Shown piece after piece: positions 27,591-37,750 of a stretch of 40,777 nt of DNA (position 1 is the stretch's first letter; each line of letters begins with the position of its first letter). Location of the stretch: the NCBI GenBank assembly GCA_020429185.1, contig JAGQLO010000009.1:1-40777 (forward strand), in the 5' to 3' direction. The notes below the pieces were generated by a model. It was not told where the DNA came from. It ran no database searches and saw only the letters and a list, made by a program, of their open reading frames with translations. This stretch comes from Candidatus Doudnabacteria bacterium (lineage in GTDB: Bacteria; Patescibacteriota; JABMPQ01; JAGQLO01). The translations under genes and the position numbers were made by a program.

Positions 27591-28427
27591 ATGGACCGAC
27601 AACGTCTCACCATTACCCTCAGAAAGGATCTGCTGAAAGAAGTGGATGAGGCTATTGATGGTGCAAAAATTCGCAACCGATCACATGCAATTGAGTACTT
27701 GCTCACGCAAGCCCTGCGACCAACCGTAGAGCGAGCAGTTATTCTTGCAGGTGGAAAAGGCGTACAAATGCGCCCGTTTACCTACGAGATGCCAAAGACT
27801 ATGCTTCCGGTTGGTGGGCGTCCTATTCTAGAGTATGCAGTTGAACGACTTCGCAAAGCGGGCGTGCGTAACATTACGATCGTCATTGGTCACTTGGGAG
27901 AAAAGATTCGAGACCATTTTGGAGATGGTTCTGCATTCGGAGTTCGTATTGATTACTTCGAGCAACAGGGTGAAACAATTGGTACTGCCTATCCGCTTAC
28001 ACAAATTCGAACGTTGCAAAAAGGCAATCCATTCTTTGTGATGTACGGAGATACGCTCGCAGATATCGATCTACAAGACCTGTTCGAGACTCACGACAGC
28101 ACGGGAGCCATTATGACGGCGGCACTTACGTCTGTAGAGCAGCCTGGATCATTTGGTGTGGCGTCGTTGCGAGGCTACAAAATTGTTCGATTCGACGAAA
28201 AACCAGGTGTTGGAAAGAGCCGAACACATCTTGTGAGTGCAGGCGTGTTTGTGTGTAGTCCGGGCATCGTAAACGTAATTCCAAAGAAGAAGACAGCGTC
28301 AATCGAAAAGGATGTTCTGCCACATTTGGCGGGAGAAGGCCTTATTACCGGCTATCCGTTCGAAGGACGGTGGTACGATGTAGGAACTCCAGAGATCTAC
28401 GAGAAGGTCATACAGGAATGGGTGTAG
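27591..28427 (+). CDS. Ribbon-helix-helix domain fused to a sugar-nucleotidyltransferase-like domain
   Basis: 278 residues. Residues 1-45 form a CopG-type ribbon-helix-helix (QRLTITLRKDLLKEVDEAID, then NRSHAIEYLLTQAL), a DNA-binding dimerisation module. Residues ~49-278 are a GT-A-like nucleotidyltransferase: VILAGGKGVQMRPFTYE, PKTMLPVGGRPILEY, metal-type FFVMYGDTLAD, GSFGVA, and the ending GRWYDVGTPEIYEKV. The signature arginine of GxGTRL is Gln here (GVQMRP), so catalysis may be weak or lost, while PK and the GD aspartate remain. A DNA-binding regulator that senses a nucleotide sugar is a reasonable reading, but unproven. It sits opposite the SIS isomerase, a plausible target, and 42 nt before tRNA-Leu. 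Confidence 0.82.
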   Translation: MDRQRLTITLRKDLLKEVDEAIDGAKIRNRSHAIEYLLTQALRPTVERAVILAGGKGVQMRPFTYEMPKTMLPVGGRPILEYAVERLRKAGVRNITIVIGHLGEKIRDHFGDGSAFGVRIDYFEQQGETIGTAYPLTQIRTLQKGNPFFVMYGDTLADIDLQDLFETHDSTGAIMTAALTSVEQPGSFGVASLRGYKIVRFDEKPGVGKSRTHLVSAGVFVCSPGIVNVIPKKKTASIEKDVLPHLAGEGLITGYPFEGRWYDVGTPEIYEKVIQEWV

Positions 28428-28469
28428 ACAAGAACGCCAAGATAAAGCATCTTAGGTGAGCAACAACAG

Positions 28470-28555
28470 GCCGAGGTGGCGGAATTGGTAGACGCGCTAG
28501 GTTTAGGTCCTAGTGGGCTATGCCCGTGGAGGTTCGAGTCCTCTCCTCGGTACCA
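28470..28555 (+). tRNA. tRNA-Leu (anticodon UAG)
   Basis: 86 bases, CCA encoded. Acceptor GCCGAGG pairs with CCTCGGT (one G-U), D-arm stem GCG/CGC, anticodon stem CTAGG/CCTAG with loop TTTAGGT giving anticodon TAG at 28504-28506, long variable arm with GGG/CCC (class II, as leucine tRNAs have), and T-arm GGAGG/CCTCT with loop TTCGAGT. It reads CUN leucine codons, mainly CUA. Confidence 0.97.
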
Positions 28556-28579
28556 GTTAAAAATTGGCTTGAATAAGGC

Positions 28580-28610
28580 AAAAAGTACCCCAATTGTAGG
28601 GGTGCTTTTT
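28580..28610 (+). terminator. Intrinsic terminator after tRNA-Leu
   Basis: AAAAAGTACCCC (28580-28591) pairs with GGGGTGCTTTTT (28599-28610) with one T-G pair and a 7-base loop, ending in TTTTT. It separates the tRNA from the GC-rich island. Confidence 0.88.
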
Positions 28611-28625
28611 ATAACACTGAAAGTA

Positions 28626-28654
28626 TTGACATTTGTCAACGTTTATGGTAGATT
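28626..28654 (+). promoter_or_regulatory. Promoter of the island operon with a palindrome over the -35 box
   Basis: TTGACA (28626-28631) is consensus, followed after 17 bases by TAGATT (28649-28654). The -35 is the left half of a perfect 14-base palindrome, TTGACATTTGTCAA (28626-28639), which would suit a dimeric repressor. Predicted start of transcription is near 28661. Confidence 0.75.
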
Positions 28655-28660
28655 TCACGT

Positions 28661-28792
28661 AAGAACATCAGGGACGGCTCCGCACGGATCTTGGCTGAAA
28701 TAAGCCAAAACCGAGCGAGTGGTCCGTGGTGGGCCGGTCCTTGAAAATCTGGAAATCAGAAATTCAGAAAAATACCTTGAGGAGGTGGGAAG
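28661..28792 (+). ncRNA. Structured 5' leader RNA of the island operon
   Basis: About 130 bases of untranslated leader. Nested helices: GGAC-GGC (28672-28678) with GCC-g-GTCC (28733-28740, one bulged G); CACGGATC (28683-28690) with GGTCCGTG (28721-28728, one G-U); and hairpin TTGGCT (28691-28696) with AGCCAA (28703-28708) stacked directly on it. A 12-base single-stranded GA-rich segment (28709-28720) lies in the inner loop. An AT-rich spacer follows, then GAGGAGGTG five bases before the ATG. It does not match a riboswitch I know; it could be a riboswitch, protein-binding site or mRNA stabiliser. Confidence 0.55.
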
Positions 28793-30751
28793 ATGGCGAG
28801 CCGACGACGTGGTCCGTCGACCCGTCTGCAGCTGAACCTGCGGACGGAGTGGGACGTCGCTGATGAGGCGACGTTCGTAATTCCAATGACGGCCGTCGTC
28901 TTGGGGCAGCTGCCTCGGGATGTCGGCTTCGAGCAGCTCGAGTTGAAGGTCGTGGTGAACGGGACTGCGGTCCTGGACACCAAGGCTTCCCGTTCCGACG
29001 ACCAGGATGATTACCCGTTCGACGCCTCGATGATGGCGTCGTGCGGGATCCCAGTGCCGCACGGCTACCGGGGGTCGCTGAACGTGTCGGTGGTTGCGTT
29101 CGCGCCGCCATCCGATGCTGGAGGTGACGAATGGTCGGTGGCGGCTCATGCTGCACTGACCATCAACCGGCCGGCGACGGCCACTCCCACCCCGGCCTCC
29201 GTGTCGGACCCCACTCCCTCCAACCTCCGGCTCGAGCTGCTCGGCGTGCCCGCTGAGGCCATCAAGCTCGCCCGAGGTCAGTCGCCGGACCCTGTCCGGA
29301 TCGGCGTCGTCCTTCATGGAGATCATCTCCAGCCAAAGGACGTGAAGCGAACGCAACTCGGGTACTGGTGCCCGACCAACGCCGCCATCCGTCAGGATTG
29401 CGTGGTAGCGTTCGCTTCGGGCGTGAGGCACGCCCACATGGACGTCACTCTCCCGGCCGACTCGGAGGGAACGTTCACGATCGAGATCATCGCCTACGTA
29501 GGCCGGGAGCAAGCTCCGGTGACGAAGGAGATCTCGATCATGGTGGAGCGGGAGGCCGAACAGCCCGCGCCGCCACCTCAGTCCCCCACCAACGTGTCGG
29601 CGAAGCTGCGTGTCATGCGCGTGCCGTCGGTCGTTGAGGGTGACGAACTTGTCGTTTCACTCCAGCTGGAGTTGAACGGCGAGCACCTCCCGGGCTCGGG
29701 GGAGGTCAGTGCGATCGTACAAGCGATCAACGCTGTGGGGATTCAGGACGCTCGGCTCCGGCCGTGGCAGCCCGATGACCCGTTCCGAGCGATGAAGGCG
29801 ACCATCCGCGTGCCGGCCCGCGTGCCGGAGGGGGAGGTCGAGCTCATCGGTCTGGTGGACGTGCCTGGTTTCGGCCGGGTCGAGGCTCAGGCCTCGTTCA
29901 CGTTCACGCGGGATCCCAGGCCGGCGCCGCCGCCGGACCCGGAACCCACGGTGCTTGACGACAACGACCTCGAGGACATCAGCGATCTGACTTCTCCGCC
30001 CGAACAGGCGGCGGTCGTCATGTCGCTCATCGCTGTCGGGACCGAGTCGAGCCCGGGCCTACCCCCTCTTCCTCCGAGTGGGTACGTCTTGGATGTGCAC
30101 TTGGAAGAGACCGGTTCCGGCCGCGCGCTCGCCGAGGGCATCTTGGATGTCGTCGTGCGGGAGGCGGTCTGGAATGGGCTGACCCAGAGCTGGGACGAGC
30201 TCGAGGGAGAGGGGTCGGTCCGAACGCTCCGCGTGCCGGGCACGATCCCTCTGAACTTCGAGCCCGGGCGGTCGTACAGGGTGATGATCCCGGCGTACGC
30301 CGGGGCGGACTTCGGTCCGCAGTACGTCATAAAGCTGCCCACTGGAACTCACAGCAACATCGTGCATTTCGAATGCGGGTCATTCCGTCGCTCCGGCGGC
30401 GGCGCGGCTCGTGGTGCACGTGCGGCTGCGCGAGGCTTTGGGCGGTTTGCTGGGCTCGCCGTGCGGAGCATGCGGCGTGCGGCAGCTTCCCTCGTGGAAG
30501 ATCCGGCCAGCATGACTGAACGTCCGGCTCGGCGCCCGCTTCTCGCAAACCTGGGACCTTCGGACGCTGGTCGCGCGCGACGCGCGGCTGCGGACAGGGT
30601 TGAGGCGGAGAGGCTCGCTGCGGCACAGGCCAAGGCTCGCGAACATGAGCTGGCACTGGCGGCAGCGAAAAACAAGGCGGGTGCGGCCAAACCCTCCGGT
30701 GGCGGTACGTCGGGGGGTGCGGACGATGGATCGGGCGGTAGCTCGACCTAG
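28793..30751 (+). CDS. Unfamiliar multi-domain beta-sandwich protein, island gene 1
   Basis: 652 residues from ATG 28793, preceded by an almost perfect Shine-Dalgarno (GAGGAGGTG, 5 nt spacing). I do not recognise the family. Four Ig-like beta-rich domains are visible at about 10-125, 140-252, 262-378 and 400-535, separated by Pro-rich linkers (PATATPTPASVSDPTPS; EQPAPPPQSP; PRPAPPPDPEP). Residues 536-652 are an Arg/Ala-rich helical segment ending in a Gly/Ser-rich tail. There is no signal peptide or membrane helix, so either it stays in the cytoplasm or uses a non-classical route. G/C-ending codons dominate, unlike the neighbours. The two following genes encode membrane proteins, suggesting a scaffold or complex partner. 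Confidence 0.8.
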   Translation: MASRRRGPSTRLQLNLRTEWDVADEATFVIPMTAVVLGQLPRDVGFEQLELKVVVNGTAVLDTKASRSDDQDDYPFDASMMASCGIPVPHGYRGSLNVSVVAFAPPSDAGGDEWSVAAHAALTINRPATATPTPASVSDPTPSNLRLELLGVPAEAIKLARGQSPDPVRIGVVLHGDHLQPKDVKRTQLGYWCPTNAAIRQDCVVAFASGVRHAHMDVTLPADSEGTFTIEIIAYVGREQAPVTKEISIMVEREAEQPAPPPQSPTNVSAKLRVMRVPSVVEGDELVVSLQLELNGEHLPGSGEVSAIVQAINAVGIQDARLRPWQPDDPFRAMKATIRVPARVPEGEVELIGLVDVPGFGRVEAQASFTFTRDPRPAPPPDPEPTVLDDNDLEDISDLTSPPEQAAVVMSLIAVGTESSPGLPPLPPSGYVLDVHLEETGSGRALAEGILDVVVREAVWNGLTQSWDELEGEGSVRTLRVPGTIPLNFEPGRSYRVMIPAYAGADFGPQYVIKLPTGTHSNIVHFECGSFRRSGGGAARGARAAARGFGRFAGLAVRSMRRAAASLVEDPASMTERPARRPLLANLGPSDAGRARRAAADRVEAERLAAAQAKAREHELALAAAKNKAGAAKPSGGGTSGGADDGSGGSST

Positions 30752-30893
30752 TCCGCATCGAGGTCGACACGGTCGACGGCAAGCGCACTCGTTGGAGATC
30801 GCGCACAACCGTCGTCCGTGCCGGCCACTCATCTAGAACTGAATTGCCGGCCCCGACAAAGGGTTGGCTCGCGAATTGATGAAGGAGACAAGC

Positions 30894-31712
30894 ATGACCG
30901 CGTGGATGTGGTTCTTGCTCATCGTCTGCGCCATCGGAGTGACGATCCAGTGGCGCATGAATCTCAACCGGCTCGGTCGCTTCCTCGTCGGTGGGGTGAT
31001 GGCGTACTGTGCCTGGAGGTTCCTCGGGAAGCTCTGGTACATGTACCCAGAAATCATGGCGCCCGTCAGCGCCATCCTGTTTCCCTTCGCCGTGATGGCG
31101 ATCGTGGGGCTCTTCCTCGGTCTGTCTCGCGGTGAAACGTGGGGCGACGGGGTTGTGGATGTGATGCGGTGGCTGAACCGCGCAAAAGATCCCGTGACCG
31201 GGGGCGTGGACCAGAAGCGGAACAACCGTTGGTCGGTGCTCGTGTTCCTGCCGATGGCACTGTTCATGTTCGTCGCGGCGCTGAACGTGCCGACGTCGGA
31301 TGTCTCAGTGGTCAGCGCCGTCAAGCGGGGCGTTGTCGAGCTACAGGCGAACTCAAGCGTTCAGACCCTCGTCGAGAAGTTCGAACACGGCGACGACAAC
31401 GCTGGAACGTTCGACGCGGACGCTGAGGCGGCCAAGGCGAAAGCCGAGGCCGACAAGATGGACGCCGAGGCTGAAAAGGGTACCTGGTGGGTCTGGGCGG
31501 AGTTCGTCCTGTTCCTGCTGGTGTTCGTTGCCTCGTTCATCTTCTCGTGGTTCGACGAGATAGGGGCGTTTGCCATGGCCATCTTCGGAAGGTCAACCGG
31601 TATCCTGAGGACGGTGGCAGAGGGCTTCGGCACCGCTGCTGCACTCAAGGAGGGTACGGGAGGCATTGCGAAGATTGTTTCCGCGGCCAAGGGGCCGCGG
31701 AGGGCAAGCTAA
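30894..31712 (+). CDS. Unfamiliar polytopic membrane protein with a coiled coil, island gene 2
   Basis: 272 residues from ATG 30894, chosen because AAGGAG lies six bases... upstream in GAAGGAGACAAGC; a longer frame from 30864 lacks such a site. About four to five membrane helices: ~1-20, 30-48, 54-78, 112-135 and a long one near 200-225. Between the last two is an Ala/Lys/Glu/Asp-rich helix (DADAEAAKAKAEADKMDAEA) typical of a short coiled coil. The C-terminal ~45 residues are Gly/Ala/Lys-rich. No known family recognised. It follows gene 1 after 142 nt and precedes gene 3. The codons at its end form a 9-bp hairpin (31680-31701). Confidence 0.78.
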   Translation: MTAWMWFLLIVCAIGVTIQWRMNLNRLGRFLVGGVMAYCAWRFLGKLWYMYPEIMAPVSAILFPFAVMAIVGLFLGLSRGETWGDGVVDVMRWLNRAKDPVTGGVDQKRNNRWSVLVFLPMALFMFVAALNVPTSDVSVVSAVKRGVVELQANSSVQTLVEKFEHGDDNAGTFDADAEAAKAKAEADKMDAEAEKGTWWVWAEFVLFLLVFVASFIFSWFDEIGAFAMAIFGRSTGILRTVAEGFGTAAALKEGTGGIAKIVSAAKGPRRAS

Positions 31713-31745
31713 CGAACAGCACCGTGAGGCCTAGAAGGCCTCACG
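31680..31745 (+). promoter_or_regulatory. Tandem strong hairpins at the gene 2-gene 3 junction
   Basis: TCCGCGGCC (31680-31688) pairs with GGCCGCGGA (31693-31701) around a 4-base loop, within the last codons of gene 2. CGTGAGGCC (31723-31731) pairs perfectly with GGCCTCACG (31737-31745) around a 5-base loop in the intergenic gap, 22 nt before the gene 3 ATG. Neither is followed by a T-run, so mRNA stabilisation, processing or partial attenuation is more likely than full termination. Confidence 0.6.
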
Positions 31746-31767
31746 TGACTCAGAGTACGGAGAAGTC

Positions 31768-33516
31768 ATGATACGCATGTTCGGTATTCTCGCCTCAGTT
31801 CTCCTGATGGGGATGGGAATCCAAATCTTCTGGGAGGTCGACATAGCCCTCGTGACCGGGATCCTGGTCACGGCGGGCGTGCTGACGGCCCTCCAGAACA
31901 ACCCGGCGTACGCGCCGGGGATCAGGGGGCTCAAGCGGGCGCTGATCGCCACGCTCCTCGTGTGTGTGGCGGTGTTCCTGTACGCCGTGGCTGGCTGGGG
32001 CGTTGGCTCCGTATTCGGGATTTCGTGGGCCGACTTCAAGTTGGCTTGGGGAACCCACGGTGGCCGCTCCGGCATCATGAGTGGGCGCGGCACGCCTGAA
32101 GAACTGCAGGCCGTGTACTTCATGATGGTGTGGGTACTGGGAGGGTTGCTGCTCTCGGTCAACGCGATCTTCAATCCGGCTCGAAGCCGGAAGATCGTGG
32201 TGATCATGACGGCGATCTTCATGGTCCTACTCGCCGCGCTCATCATCTCCCCGAAGGGGGTAGATCTGGTGGGCCGGCTTGCTCGGAACACGGCGGCGAC
32301 CTCAGAGACGGCCCGGAAGGTTGCGAGGGCGGACAAGGTCGAGAAGACGATCTACGACACCAACGAGTTGCGTGAAAGCGCTCAAGCGGTGGCCGTGGAG
32401 CGGATCAACGACCAGATCGAGGCGCTCAAGCGCGCTGCGGTCTGTCCGCGCGGAACCGGGTTCTGCCCGAGCCCGGCACAGCGAAACCGGCTCGAGGAGC
32501 TCACGCACCAGCTCCAGGTGGCCAACACCTCGGACTGGCGGACCAAGGTTCGTGGCGACACCGGGTTCACCCCCGTCGTTCCCCTGGTGGACGGCGAGGT
32601 GTTCCAGGTGCGCGAGACCGTCGACAAGACGCGTATCGCGGACGAGCACGGCTACCCGTTGCTCTCGCTCGACACGAGCCGAGGCTGGAAGGCCTACGGG
32701 CTGCTGGCGGATGTCTGGACGACGGCTCCCAACGGTTGGCTGATGGCACTCGTGGTCATTGGTCTGATCGGTTGGGTCGTTGGCTGGCGCTTCGGTGGTC
32801 GTGGACGTCGTGGGTCGCTGGTTGGTACGGTGATCGCGTTCCTGGCGGCGAGCACGTGGTTCTGGTTGATCCCAGGCGAGCACGTGAACCCTGCCTGGGC
32901 GGGCCCTGAAGGGCTGGTCGGCCGCACGTGTGAAAGCGTGCTCGAGCAGTTCCGGCAGAACGAGGGCTCGCAGAACGCGAAGCGCGCTGGTGTGGAGGCT
33001 GGGGACACGTGCCTCGCCCCCAACGAGCCGCTCGGGATGCTCCTAATGGCCGCCTGGCCAGAAGGAACGAAGCCCGAGCTGCAGAGTCTCGTGAACATCC
33101 GGCCCATCGGCCGGGTGGACGCGGACGACCAGCTCGCGCCGGGCAAGCAGTTCGAGTTGACGGAGTGCGGCAACGTGATCGACAAGACCACGGGGCAGTG
33201 TGAAGTCGACTCGGACACGGGCTTGTGCCGACAGCGCACGTGCACGGTCGTCTACGTGGTGAACCACTGGCGCAATCGCAAGATGCGTCAAGCTCGTCAC
33301 GGTGGCGCTCTGCACGTCCTGGGCTTCCAGGACACGCGCTTCCAGGCTCAGCCCCAGAAGCCCGAGGTCAAGACCGCTGCGGCAGCCCCGGGCTCCGAGA
33401 TGGTCTTCGATCCCGTGCCCATCGCCCTGAAGCTGGCCGGTGCCGAATGCGAGAGCCATTCGGAGTGTGAGAGTGATCTCTGCTCCGAGGGTGTCTGCAC
33501 CGAGACGACCGACTGA
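31768..33516 (+). CDS. Unfamiliar polytopic membrane protein with Cys-rich C-terminus, island gene 3
   Basis: 582 residues from ATG 31768 with CGGAGAAG just upstream. Five N-terminal helices (~1-22, 25-43, 55-85, 112-135, 143-162), a ~150-residue soluble region with a charged helical part (SETARKVARADKVEKTIYD) and CPRGTGFCPSP, then two more helices (~320-340, 350-370), and a C-terminal ~210-residue domain with many Cys, ending AECESHSECESDLCSEGVC. That last motif resembles a Cys motif in the pilin-like protein at 35454-36527. A multi-helix protein next to VirB2-like genes could be VirB6-like, but I see no specific VirB6 signature. Family unknown; membrane location is firm. Confidence 0.8.
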   Translation: MIRMFGILASVLLMGMGIQIFWEVDIALVTGILVTAGVLTALQNNPAYAPGIRGLKRALIATLLVCVAVFLYAVAGWGVGSVFGISWADFKLAWGTHGGRSGIMSGRGTPEELQAVYFMMVWVLGGLLLSVNAIFNPARSRKIVVIMTAIFMVLLAALIISPKGVDLVGRLARNTAATSETARKVARADKVEKTIYDTNELRESAQAVAVERINDQIEALKRAAVCPRGTGFCPSPAQRNRLEELTHQLQVANTSDWRTKVRGDTGFTPVVPLVDGEVFQVRETVDKTRIADEHGYPLLSLDTSRGWKAYGLLADVWTTAPNGWLMALVVIGLIGWVVGWRFGGRGRRGSLVGTVIAFLAASTWFWLIPGEHVNPAWAGPEGLVGRTCESVLEQFRQNEGSQNAKRAGVEAGDTCLAPNEPLGMLLMAAWPEGTKPELQSLVNIRPIGRVDADDQLAPGKQFELTECGNVIDKTTGQCEVDSDTGLCRQRTCTVVYVVNHWRNRKMRQARHGGALHVLGFQDTRFQAQPQKPEVKTAAAAPGSEMVFDPVPIALKLAGAECESHSECESDLCSEGVCTETTD

Positions 33517-33599
33517 CTGGGCAGGTGACAGCGCCCATTCGTCGCTCCTTCGGCGCTGCACCTTTGACCGTCGCACTTTTTGTACCTTCGACCGACTTC

Positions 33600-33640
33600 G
33601 GCCTGCGCATCCCTCCGGGGCTCTGCGCAGGCCTTTTTCT
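33600..33640 (+). terminator. Intrinsic terminator ending the island operon
   Basis: A 10-bp perfect stem GGCCTGCGCA (33600-33609) with TGCGCAGGCC (33624-33633), its loop itself containing CCC/GGG, followed by TTTTTCTTTT. A smaller hairpin (CAGCGCC with GGCGCTG) lies upstream between 33530 and 33560. No other gene is seen in 33517-33724. Confidence 0.9.
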
Positions 33641-33663
33641 TTTGTCTGGATGAATAGATGTAC

Positions 33664-33690
33664 AACAAAACAGCCCCGAAGGGCTGCTCT
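33664..33690 (-). terminator. Intrinsic terminator of the pilin operon
   Basis: On the minus strand CAGCCC (33686-33681), loop TTCG, then GGGCTG (33676-33671), followed by TTTTGTTGT. A UUCG tetraloop hairpin ending the transcript of the gene at 33725. Confidence 0.88.
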
Positions 33691-33724
33691 GAAGTGTTTC
33701 CTTGCGGAATGCGGTAGACCGCCT

Positions 33725-34105
33725 CTATGCGCCACTTGTCGAAAGTAGGGCTGAAATCACAAAGTCGGAAACCACAAAGGCCGCGAACACGATGACGGTA
33801 CCGATAATCGCGTAAATCATCACGCGCTTTCCGGTCTCGACACGGTCTTCGTTTCCAGCGGATGTTGCGTACAACACACCACCGTAGACGAACAACGCTA
33901 CAAGGAGTACTCCGATGATACCTAGAATCCATCGAATCATGGTCGAAACGAAGGAAGGAAGGTCATCAGTTGCAATACCAGCCTCAGCACCGAACTGCTC
34001 ATCGAGTTCGATTGAAGGGGGCTGGTTTGCTGCTACCTGAGCGAAGGTCATAACAGGAAGCATAAGCATTCCTGCGGCTGCAAACGCTGCAAGTGTCTTT
34101 TTCAT
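33725..34105 (-). CDS. VirB2/TrbC-like pilin, paralogue 6 (minimal form)
   Basis: 126 residues. Signal peptide (MKKTLAAFAAAGMLMLPVMT then FAQ), a short acidic segment, and the two-helix pilin-like core: WILGIIGVLLVALFVYGGVL, then YATSAGNEDRVETGKRVMIY, and IIGTVIVFAAFVV. This TSAGN-R-x-x-x-K loop between helices is shared by all paralogues in the cluster. The shortest member with no added domain, hence likely the major subunit. Its Shine-Dalgarno is essentially perfect (AAAGGAGGTGG at 34123-34113, seven bases before the ATG), stronger than elsewhere in the operon. Inferred product: a small exported membrane protein or pilus subunit, as for conjugative VirB2. Confidence 0.82.
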   Translation of the reverse strand: MKKTLAAFAAAGMLMLPVMTFAQVAANQPPSIELDEQFGAEAGIATDDLPSFVSTMIRWILGIIGVLLVALFVYGGVLYATSAGNEDRVETGKRVMIYAIIGTVIVFAAFVVSDFVISALLSTSGA

Positions 34106-34158
34106 GGACGGTCCACCTCCTTTCGCAGATTGATGTTCATAAAGATCAACAAATACGC

Positions 34159-34860
34159 TTAGTTACTGCATCGAATGCTACCAAAAATGTTAGGACAACA
34201 CAACTGCCCTTGTCCGTCAACATAGCATCGATCTGTGTTGCGAGCCTTCTTATCGAAACAGGAGTACGTCGTTCCAGAAGACGTTCGACAGCATGTTTGA
34301 TTCTGATCGTTTACAAAACAATCATTCGAGTTCGTGACATTGCCGGAGCGCGCGGCTGTTCCTCCATTCGAGAAGTTGCTGTTGAACTGATCAACTGAAC
34401 CACTAAGGTTTGAATTTGATCCTCCTACAACGGCCGTAGAACCCCCTCCTCCGCCTGTTGTGCCTCGTAGGGCCCCAATGGTGAACTCAGACACAATAAA
34501 CGCCATGAAGATGATGACAACGCCGATAATGGCATACGTAAGAATGTTCTTGGCGGTGTCAACGCGCCCTTCGTTACCAGCGGAGGTTGCATACATCACG
34601 CCTCCGTAGATGATAAGTGCAACTAAGATCACCCCGATAATTCCGAGGACCCAACGAATAATGTTCGCCGTGTAAGAAACGGGCGAGTCGGTTGGAAGTC
34701 CGGATCCCTCGTTTGCAAGTTCTGACAGTCCTAGGTCAGACGAAGCAGCGAGTACGCTCGGCATCTGAAACAGAAATACAGCACCGGCAATGGTGAATGT
34801 AAGGAACAGTGCAGACATGATGAGAAACGCGCGCATGGACTGTGATGTGTGGGACAACAT
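34159..34860 (-). CDS. VirB2/TrbC-like pilin, paralogue 5, with C-terminal Cys-rich domain
   Basis: 233 residues. Signal-like helix (~10-40), then the two-helix core (WVLGIIGVILVALIIYGG; MYATSAGNEGRVDTAKNILT; IIGVVIIFMAFIVSE), a Gly/Ser/Asn linker (~132-170), and a C-terminal domain with at least eight Cys (NDCFVNDQNQTCC..., DRCYVDGQGQLCCPNIFGSIRC), suggesting two disulphide-bonded repeats. Start ATG 34860 overlaps the upstream stop by one base (TAATG). The shared core is strong; the appended domain is not recognised. A 53-nt gap follows before the last gene, carrying that gene's strong ribosome site. Confidence 0.8.
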   Translation of the reverse strand: MLSHTSQSMRAFLIMSALFLTFTIAGAVFLFQMPSVLAASSDLGLSELANEGSGLPTDSPVSYTANIIRWVLGIIGVILVALIIYGGVMYATSAGNEGRVDTAKNILTYAIIGVVIIFMAFIVSEFTIGALRGTTGGGGGSTAVVGGSNSNLSGSVDQFNSNFSNGGTAARSGNVTNSNDCFVNDQNQTCCRTSSGTTYSCFDKKARNTDRCYVDGQGQLCCPNIFGSIRCSN

Positions 34861-35444
34861 TATTGGCCGTTGATCAGATCATCTGTTTTCTCTGGAAGTG
34901 TGGTTTCACGAAAGCTTGAGGTATTGTTTGTCACTTCCCCGCTTCGACGTGTAATGCTGTCTTGGCGTACAGCGCCTCCGAGCTCATAGTCACAGTAGAA
35001 TCCTGGAGGTGGGTTACACCAGGTTTCATTTGCCGGGTTCAGGTTGTTCGTAGGAGTAACATTTGTAGTGGTGTTTTGACCAGTAATCAGTGCTCCGACC
35101 ACAAAGCGCGCGATGATAAACGCAGCAAGTACGACGACGATTCCAATAATCGCCCATGTAATAATGTCCTTTCCTTGCTCAACACGTGATGAGTTTCCAG
35201 CAGAAGTCATGTACATCACCCCTCCAAAAATAAGGAGACCTACAAGGAGAATGCCGAGAATGCCGAGAATCACACTAATAGTACCTCCGAGGAATGAGGC
35301 TGGACTGTCGTCACGAAGACCGAACTGGCTTCCAGAAAGAGTGCTTAACCCAAAGTCCTGGGCGGCCGCAGGAAGTGCCACAAGTGCAAGAAGCGTGAGT
35401 GAGCCGAGAGTAGCGTACGTTGTACGAAGTCGAGATCGGAACAT
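34860..35444 (-). CDS. VirB2/TrbC-like pilin, paralogue 4
   Basis: 194 residues. Signal peptide (TLGSLTLLALVALPAAAQ), a short segment DFGLSTLSGSQFGLRDDS, and the two-helix core with ILGILGILLVGLLIFGGVMY, MTSAGNSSRVEQGKDIIT and IIGIVVVLAAFIIARFVV. The C-terminal ~70 residues are Asn/Thr-rich with a Cys pair (WCNPPPGFYCDYE), simpler than in paralogue 5. Overlaps the next gene by one base and begins 9 nt after the preceding stop. It shares with paralogue 3 the FGL...LRTDSP-like lead-in to the core. Confidence 0.8.
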   Translation of the reverse strand: MFRSRLRTTYATLGSLTLLALVALPAAAQDFGLSTLSGSQFGLRDDSPASFLGGTISVILGILGILLVGLLIFGGVMYMTSAGNSSRVEQGKDIITWAIIGIVVVLAAFIIARFVVGALITGQNTTTNVTPTNNLNPANETWCNPPPGFYCDYELGGAVRQDSITRRSGEVTNNTSSFRETTLPEKTDDLINGQ

Positions 35445-35453
35445 AAGAGCGTA

Positions 35454-36527
35454 CTACGCCGCAAGGGCACGAATAACAAGCTCAGCAATAATGAACGCTG
35501 CGGAAACAACCACAATTCCGATAATGGCGTAGGTGATAATGTCTTTCGCCTGTTCTACGCGTTGCGCGTTTCCGGCGGAGGTCATGTAAATAATGCCTCC
35601 AGCGACCAGTAGGACGACAAGAACGGCAGCTAAAATACCTAGAACGGTGCGCACCACTCCCGTGATAAAGGCTTGAGGAGAGTCGGTACGAAGTCCAACG
35701 TTCTGACCACGGAAGAAGTTAAGACCAAAATCTACGGAGTCCGGAGCAACATCTGGGTCGAGCGCGGAGCCATCACCTGGTTTTCCTCCGTCTGCGCCTC
35801 CCCCATCACCACCATCGGCTGGCTTAAAACACTGCTTTGTGTCCGTGTTACAGTCGAATCCAGCAGCACAGTCATTTTTCTCCTCACATGGGCCACCGAC
35901 TTGTTGCGGAAGCGTACAAGCGCCTGAACGTCCTTGGCCGAATAGTCCACCAATATTTGTTTCGGCAGTGTTACAAATGAGCCCATCAGCACAGTCTGAC
36001 TCCGCAAAACAAGTGGAACCTTCTTGGTCAATACATTCTTCACGAGCATTCGTATCGTTTGGGTGAATGCTGAAACAATATTCACGCCACGACGTGATGG
36101 TTGTTCCAGCAGAGCCCTTCTTTGCACATTCACCGTAATCGTATCCGCCACTGAAGGCGATAGCAGAGGACGAAGCGCTACACACAAGGTTAGATGATCC
36201 TCTTCGATTACAGTCATACTGGTTACAGTCATCTCCCTCATTTGCAAATGCGGGCACACAGATCGCTTCGGGGGCTACAACTCCTGGCTTAAGAATCAGT
36301 TCTCCGTCGGCAGAATAGGTGTAAAAATCATCTACATTCGAGGTTTCTAGCAAGTTACAGCGAAGATCTGCCTGACACTCACTACTCTTCGTACAAGACT
36401 CACCAGCTGATTTTGTGCCGGTTGCACTTCCAGCTTCTACCGGACCAACGAATGCAACAGCAGCAAGAAAAGCGACAAACAGCAGTACGATCGGAGCGGT
36501 AATCTTGTGCAAAGAAGAGGTGGTCAT
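35454..36527 (-). CDS. VirB2/TrbC-like pilin, paralogue 3, with N-terminal Cys-rich repeats
   Basis: 357 residues, the longest paralogue. Signal peptide (~5-32), then three Cys motifs of the C-x2-S-S-E-C-x4-L-x-C type: SCTKSSECQADLRCN (~45), STCFAESDCADGLICN (~175) and GPCEEKNDCAAGFDCN (~215), before a Gly/Asp linker (DGGDGGGADGGKPGDGS) and the pilin core at the C-terminal end (~285-357: VRTVLGILAAVLVVLLVAGG; MTSAGNAQRVEQAKDIITY). The Cys repeats resemble small extracellular disulphide knots and would lie outside the membrane. Placed 10 nt after paralogue 2. Function likely adhesion or structural; unproven. Confidence 0.8.
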   Translation of the reverse strand: MTTSSLHKITAPIVLLFVAFLAAVAFVGPVEAGSATGTKSAGESCTKSSECQADLRCNLLETSNVDDFYTYSADGELILKPGVVAPEAICVPAFANEGDDCNQYDCNRRGSSNLVCSASSSAIAFSGGYDYGECAKKGSAGTTITSWREYCFSIHPNDTNAREECIDQEGSTCFAESDCADGLICNTAETNIGGLFGQGRSGACTLPQQVGGPCEEKNDCAAGFDCNTDTKQCFKPADGGDGGGADGGKPGDGSALDPDVAPDSVDFGLNFFRGQNVGLRTDSPQAFITGVVRTVLGILAAVLVVLLVAGGIIYMTSAGNAQRVEQAKDIITYAIIGIVVVSAAFIIAELVIRALAA

Positions 36528-36537
36528 ACAGAAATAA

Positions 36538-37224
36538 CTAAGCGGTCAACGCGCGAATGACAAATTCCGCAATGAGGAAGGCAGCGAACGCGATCACTGT
36601 TCCAACAATAGCGGCAGTAATCACCTTCTTTCCTTGTAGGGCTTTCCCATCTTTCCCACCGCTTGCACCTGTCATATACAAGATGCCTCCGTACACGATG
36701 AGTACAACGAGAATGGCACCGATATACAGGAATACTTGGCGAACAATGGTAATAAGAAGTGTCTCTGGGCGTCCCTGATAGAGTCCAAGACCGCGTAATG
36801 CATTGGTACCAAATCCACTTTGCTGTGCGCTCTGGAGATTTTCAGCTCCTGTTACAGGACCTCCTGTAGCTCCGCCACCTGTCCCTGCTCCAGCAGCTCC
36901 CCCTGTTGTGCCAGCAGCCTTTGCCGAACAAGCACCTTTGTCTGGGTCTGTGGGATCAATGGCAACACAGGTCTGACCAGCCTGGCAGGCGCCAGTGCCA
37001 TCGTTTGTTTCTGTGCTGACATCGCAGGCCGTCAAGCAGATTCCCTCGCCGGTTGCGTTTCGGTCACCACAGCGCTCATCTGAAGCACAAGTTCCTTGAA
37101 TGGAATCTGCAAACGTAGCTGTACAGGAATCTCCAAGTGCAGCTTGTGTCTCAGTGGGCGTGACAACAAACGTGAGTGCTGCAAGGGCAATCACTGCCCC
37201 AGAGAGAGAAAGAAAACGACGCAT
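36538..37224 (-). CDS. VirB2/TrbC-like pilin, paralogue 2, with Cys-rich N-terminus
   Basis: 228 residues from ATG 37224; an in-frame GTG at 37239 would overlap the previous gene. Signal peptide (MRRFLSLSGAVIALAALTFV), then an ~80-residue domain with about ten Cys (DSCTATFADSIQGTC, RCGDRNATGEGICLTAC, GACQAGQTC), a Gly-rich linker, and the two-helix core with VLIVYGGILYMTGASGGKDG, KALQGKKVITAAIVGT and AFAAFLIAEFVIRAL. Here TSAGN has become TGASGGKD. The stop precedes paralogue 3 by 10 nt. Confidence 0.79.
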   Translation of the reverse strand: MRRFLSLSGAVIALAALTFVVTPTETQAALGDSCTATFADSIQGTCASDERCGDRNATGEGICLTACDVSTETNDGTGACQAGQTCVAIDPTDPDKGACSAKAAGTTGGAAGAGTGGGATGGPVTGAENLQSAQQSGFGTNALRGLGLYQGRPETLLITIVRQVFLYIGAILVVLIVYGGILYMTGASGGKDGKALQGKKVITAAIVGTVIAFAAFLIAEFVIRALTA

Positions 37225-37228
37225 AGGC

Positions 37229-37750
37229 TTAGGTCGCACCGATAATACGGAGCGTGAAGTTCACAATGAGCAATGACAAGAAGACAATTACAAGTCCAAG
37301 AACCGTGTAAGAGATAGTTCGTTTTGCAGAAGCTGCTCGCGTCTCGCTACCTGCAGAGGTCATATAGACGATACCGGCATACACCAACATGATGACGGCA
37401 ACAGCACCAACCATCGATAAAATGAAGTTGATGACACGCGCGATAATCACGGGAACAGAACAGGCTTGCCCTCCACAATTGATTGGTGAAGTGAGAGAGA
37501 CAACGCCAGAACGAACGGCGTTCACTTCACCCGCTTGGTTGGCAGCCGTTCCGTTGCCTGCATTGTTTTGATCTCCAGCAGGAGGTGCACCTGGATTATC
37601 GGTTCCTCCAGCCGGCGCGCCTTGTGCTCCTGGGTTGTCTGTAGATTGAGCAAATGCAGGCGAGGCAGAAAGTGCCGTAACGCCGAACAACGCAATACAC
37701 GCCACAAGAATGGCGAGCGTACATCGTTGAATGGTGTGTAGAGATTGCAT
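37229..37750 (-). CDS. VirB2/TrbC-like pilin, paralogue 1
   Basis: 173 residues. Signal peptide (LAILVACIALFGVTALSASP), a low-complexity Asn/Pro/Gly/Ala region with the repeat TDNPGA (~37-65), a Cys pair (INCGGQACSVP), and the core (NFILSMVGAVAVIMLVYAGI; YMTSAGSETRAASAKRTISY; VLGLVIVFLSLLIVNF). First of six tandem paralogues, two bases after the solute-binding protein gene, and thus in the same operon. More divergent in the second helix than the others. Confidence 0.78.
   Translation of the reverse strand: MQSLHTIQRCTLAILVACIALFGVTALSASPAFAQSTDNPGAQGAPAGGTDNPGAPPAGDQNNAGNGTAANQAGEVNAVRSGVVSLTSPINCGGQACSVPVIIARVINFILSMVGAVAVIMLVYAGIVYMTSAGSETRAASAKRTISYTVLGLVIVFLSLLIVNFTLRIIGAT

Follow-up and report, generated by a model that had tools for sequence, protein, structure and literature searches.

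The closest described counterparts of the locus considered here are the morons of lambdoid prophages, extra genes with their own promoter and terminator and a deviant GC content that sit between native transcription units. The window analysed is the whole of contig JAGQLO010000009.1 (40,777 nucleotides; contig C44 of the genome) from Candidatus Doudnabacteria bacterium (assembly GCA_020429185.1), whose genome comprises 908 kb in 44 contigs and is estimated to be 96% complete with 0.07% contamination. It carries a GC-rich block of three genes (the trio, with predicted products P0001, P0002 and P0003) that is probably a whole transcription unit of foreign origin and the largest of about 56–60 moron-like GC-rich units acquired repeatedly from one or more GC-rich sources. 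Like a moron, the trio unit has its own promoter (a sequence match, TTGACA-17-TAGATT), its own terminator, and a GC content of 0.65 in surroundings of 0.50.

The compositional change is apparent from the GC profile of the window, which rises from about 0.50 to 0.60–0.675 across 28.8–33.6 kb and then returns to 0.49–0.51. Two-state segmentation places the block at 28781–33633 with a GC content of 0.651, and it holds three intact co-directional open reading frames (ORFs) with products of 652, 272 and 582 residues. The GC content at third codon positions (GC3) is 0.77, 0.81 and 0.83, respectively, versus 0.476 (standard deviation 0.052) in 413 native ORFs. A preliminary description of the window had reported a GC-rich three-gene block in a lower-GC chromosome, with G/C-ending codons in all three genes, and both observations hold. 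It had also reported a dedicated promoter, a folded leader, a strong terminator and ribosome sites, all of which can be located by sequence or by folding (Table 1). The ribosome sites are GAGGAGG, AAGGAG and GGAG, 5′ of the starts of P0001, P0002 and P0003, respectively; the P0002 reading frame opens at a TTG at 30864, and the start is taken as the ATG at 30894 that AAGGAG precedes. About one promoter match of equal quality is expected by chance in the region, and the weight of the promoter therefore rests on its position and on its class-wide association with GC-rich segments.

Table 1. Features of the trio transcription unit and its upstream neighbour (window coordinates).
Feature	Position	Strand	Basis
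tRNA-Leu gene, intact; upstream neighbour, outside the unit	28470..28555	+	ARAGORN and Rfam
Promoter TTGACA-N17-TAGATT	28626..28654	+	Sequence match
Folded 5′ leader, long hairpin	28668..28741	+	-44 kcal/mol for 28648-28755, z -4.1
P0001, 652 residues; no transmembrane segment; beta modules predicted, with a long helix at the C-terminus; no family	28793..30751	+	ORF, profile searches, hydropathy, model
Intergenic folded element without T-tract	30758..30876	+	-60.4 kcal/mol for 30745-30893, z -3.0
P0002, 272 residues; four clear and a likely fifth transmembrane segment; acidic loop 133-199; no family	30894..31712	+	ORF, profile searches, hydropathy
Intergenic hairpin without T-tract	31723..31746	+	-22.2 kcal/mol for 31706-31775, z -3.0
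P0003, 582 residues; seven transmembrane segments; large extracytoplasmic loop 162-315; Cys-rich C-terminus; no family	31768..33516	+	ORF, profile searches, hydropathy
Signature terminator: G+C-rich hairpin then TTTTTCTTTT	33600..33643	+	Hairpin -27.8 kcal/mol, z -4.2

The preliminary description had no view of the wider setting: counting this block, the genome contains 64 GC-rich segments. Segmentation of 901 kb finds these segments scattered over the contigs, nearly all with a single gene and totalling 66 kb (7%); 60 of them are at least 350 bp long and were used for terminator counts, and a slightly different threshold yields 56. First, 36 of the 60 bear at their outward end what we call the signature terminator, a hairpin followed by T4-8-C-T2+ reading outward, against 2.0 expected (maximum of 7 in 300 random-placement trials), although this expectation is somewhat too low as the placements were not confined to intergenic space. 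Comparisons with other terminators and with other genomes are unaffected by this, because they are independent of random placement. Second, the 600 bp upstream has a GC content of at least 0.55 at 54 of 109 signature sites versus 66 of 462 other hairpin terminators (Fisher 5e-14), and many of the remaining signature sites resemble chance matches within coding sequence. Third, under the same rule the terminator is linked to 34 of 56 segments in this genome (G000), whereas the link is not found in stretches of four other patescibacteria (1 of 23 in G027, 0 of 2 in G012, 1 of 5 in G002 and 0 of 2 in G003; 2 of 32 combined). Fourth, TTTTTCTTTTG, which directly follows the terminator hairpin of the trio unit, occurs 14 times in the genome, ten of them at GC-rich segment ends. 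Phylum-wide commonness was tested with TTTTTCTTTT-type terminators, of which there are 18 in this genome versus two in the control; an excess is also seen in one other genus (G045/G183), at sites with little or no GC step. At one locus of another patescibacterium (G045:C2:15134-16273), hairpin and TTTTTCTTTT terminators are closely spaced at normal GC. Finally, 13 of the 46 strong consensus promoters in the genome read into a GC-rich segment (0.4 expected by zone, an excess inflated by intergenic clustering).

Within this class the trio is the longest segment. It also stands alone among multi-gene segments in having no signature terminator inside it, the others being divided into separate units by internal hairpin and T-C-T terminators (C17 at 9778, C41 at 32947). 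Leader folding was considered as a further class feature and dropped, since it is only slightly stronger in the islands than after other strong promoters (-16.4 vs -14.0 kcal/mol). The earlier proposal of a transferred cassette thus stands as regards a foreign, self-contained transcription unit, but not as a one-off, given about 60 GC-rich segments of which 36 share a terminator style.

That a common terminator style accompanies unrelated cargo at every stage of compositional drift would also suit a dedicated system for gene capture that follows integron-like logic and inserts single genes ending in a hairpin and T5CT4, with this end as the recombination site. The scattered intergenic positions fit such a system too, as do the ten of 60 segments lying within 300 bp of a tRNA gene (2.3 at random placement, though both tRNAs and segments favour intergenic space). 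However, the genome encodes no reverse transcriptase and a single tyrosine recombinase that inspection suggests is Xer-like, and no integron-type integrase was found in the 96% complete sequence. No attC site was recognised in the inspected sequence, through repeats and inspection and with no dedicated attC model run, and the island ends show no convincing end repeats or target duplications apart from the terminator itself. The units are moreover dispersed rather than arrayed, and the shared end also simply works as a good terminator. We consider such a system improbable, and give equally little credence to its fuller form, in which a dedicated route fixed dozens of units with this ending from one GC-rich partner and the trio would be a partner-derived membrane machine.

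Evidence of when the units arrived comes from codon positions. The third positions of imported genes drift toward the composition of the recipient, a process known as amelioration. Island genes range in GC3 from 0.90 to 0.58, the low end being approximate because the ORFs were chosen mechanically and a few low-GC3 picks are likely antisense frames. Their mean GC content is 0.68 at first and 0.48 at second positions (GC1 and GC2), against 0.61, 0.41 and 0.48 at the three positions of natives, and GC1 and GC2 show no fall with falling GC3 (r = -0.31). This spread of GC3 at high GC1 and GC2 argues for repeated import from one or more GC-rich sources at different times, with the trio among the less drifted genes.

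The cargo is diverse. Pfam searches of 43 island ORFs identify arginase, NhaA, phosphorylase, M19 and M50 peptidases, CDP-alcohol transferase, GNAT, NUDIX, MOSC and helicase families, among others; each family is found in one member, so that almost all cargo families differ. Paralogues among the GC-rich units are likewise almost absent; the only clear pair (C4:17896-19248 and C4:21497-22861) shares 57% identity, with GC3 of 0.71 and 0.90. Distribution was tested for one island gene, encoding a uridine phosphorylase: of 95 other genomes only one contains a distant match (24% identity), whereas the NTP transferase next to the trio, a native gene, finds a match in 88 of 96.

These patterns bear on whether the segments are native genes of the lineage, made GC-rich by selection or biased conversion without transfer. 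The promoters are host-like, with an AT-rich consensus, and several segments lack relatives anywhere, as such an origin would allow. The raised GC1 and GC2 and the spread of GC3 speak against it, as does the absence or rarity in relatives of the trio and of the one island gene tested, and we regard it as slightly less probable still than a capture system.

None of the three proteins belongs to a known family in Pfam, NCBIfam or PHROGs, in agreement with the earlier statement that the products are unrecognised; nor was there any match to a well-known family of the kind that might have indicated contamination. No relatives were found in the PDB, in IMG/VR, among plasmids (all three proteins) or in up to 380 patescibacterial genomes, or for P0003 alone in phages and GTDB contigs. 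The search for the trio in other Patescibacteria, a check that had been suggested at the outset, returned weak matches only: 16.7 bits to P0003 in G060 and 18.5 bits to P0002 in G055, which like a Streptomyces plasmid match to P0003 (E 0.2) are deemed chance at this search size. Likewise, neither Pfam nor NCBIfam gives the trio a VirB or Trb match at E<=1, and PADLOC gives no match to defence systems.

The block lies between the tRNA-Leu gene and an operon of type IV secretion system (T4SS) pilins, which are convergent, on the opposite strand and of native composition. The adjoining tRNA and the foreign composition raise the idea of a mobile element integrated at tRNA-Leu, namely a phage satellite, an integrative and conjugative element or a plasmid remnant. 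Yet the three ORFs include no integrase or replication gene in Pfam or NCBIfam, the tRNA is intact, no strong direct repeat of its end is present among the repeat families listed for 28300–34200, and the viral, phage and plasmid collections provide no relative beyond the weak plasmid match, all of which makes a mobile element very improbable. Least probable of all is an assembly chimera or contamination: the composition changes abruptly, but about 60 units are embedded alike with shared ends and graded amelioration, the contamination estimate is 0.07%, and at the trio itself, where an assembly join is unlikely, the block edges carry an AT-rich promoter and a full terminator and GC3 is partly ameliorated.

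Among the immediate neighbours, the NTP transferase (27591–28427), followed by tRNA-Leu, weakly matches a ribbon-helix-helix family in its N-terminal part, and a similar order of the two genes is present on a Nealsonbacteria contig (L095:8090-9335). Downstream, six T4SS_pilin-family genes lie in succession on the minus strand (33725–37750); one of these (35454–36527) has Cys-rich repeats that resemble those at the C-terminus of P0003.

In the reading that we favour, repeated acquisition of complete units, GC-rich DNA would have been taken up many times and whole transcription units retained without a capture enzyme, the source probably being a long-term GC-rich partner lineage. Units would settle between native transcription units, where fully equipped ones, supplying their own promoter and terminator, would be expressed without disturbing their neighbours. 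After arrival, unit GC3 would drift to the recipient value, and the shared terminator style would be a trait of the donor. A plasmid tblastn search for donors gave matches of 33–35% to Pseudoalteromonas for the arginase and none for two other island genes. Several GC-rich units (C7:18310-21228, C4:21497-22861 and C16:9238-10905, among others) have lipoproteins or envelope proteins as products that on inspection look Myxococcota-like in style, and one such lipoprotein contains MopE metal-binding repeats. The style of these lipoproteins may be a hint of the donor.

Several points weigh against this interpretation. First, the genomes compared yielded neither a donor nor an empty site; these relatives within Patescibacteria, whose closest matches to one neighbouring gene are about 53% identical, included none of the same family. 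Second, 24 of the 60 segments lack a signature terminator under the rule, some of them at contig ends or in split units. Third, 20 of the 36 terminator-bearing segments lack a near-consensus promoter within 260 bp, leaving the full set in 16, and some GC-rich segments may be ordinary GC-rich genes. Finally, homology searches and structure models lend no confident support to the functional proposal for the trio that follows.

Hydropathy agrees with the earlier description of two of the products as polytopic membrane proteins (Table 1). In P0003 the basic short loops all lie on one side of the membrane, and by the positive-inside rule the Cys-rich C-terminus, a 214-residue region (369–582) with ten of the 13 Cys residues, is placed outside. 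P0001 had been described as a four-domain beta-sandwich protein; a single-sequence model of low confidence (pLDDT 41) bears this out only in part, with about three beta modules (residues 10–371) followed by the long C-terminal helix. The P0003 model, also of low confidence, consists of helices, and both models were too poor in quality for a fold search. P0003 would be a seven-segment protein carrying an outer domain rich in disulfides, P0002 its four-to-five-segment partner, and P0001 a cytosolic beta-domain protein whose C-terminal coiled region could dock on an inner-membrane complex. Such a complex is favoured by predicted co-transcription, by topology and by the absence of internal signature terminators, which sets the trio apart from every other polycistronic unit. 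We judge the chances for and against the complex to be about even; any specific role assigned to it would be doubtful.

Most Patescibacteria have no known host or partner. A series of genes from one or more GC-rich sources, graded by drift and with shared transcription signals, would be a record of past partners and their timing, and the partner could be named by matching the units to organisms of the same metagenome. How a streamlined cell acquires whole transcription units is a further, testable question raised by such a genome.

Among known systems, the T4SS membrane subunits (VirB6/TrbL-like) resemble the trio products in being polytopic with a large outer loop, and T4SS-pilin genes adjoin the trio, but there is no profile match and the pilin genes are of native composition on the other strand. 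Integron cassettes share with the GC-rich units a single gene each and a 3′-end hairpin, but the units described here are dispersed and include a promoter, and no integron-type integrase was found. The resemblance to phage morons is closer, yet the neighbours of the trio are tRNA-Leu, the NTP transferase and T4SS pilins, the setting is a cellular chromosome with dozens of units of unrelated cargo that lie outside recognised prophages, and the trio unit has three genes; because the prophage context is absent, we use moron-like rather than moron. Individually transferred genes have been described in Patescibacteria (PMC12455944), beside which the present GC-rich segments account for 7% of the sequence. 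The main text of that report does not mention 'terminator' or 'tRNA', and what is new here beside it is the shared transcription-unit signals of the transferred units.
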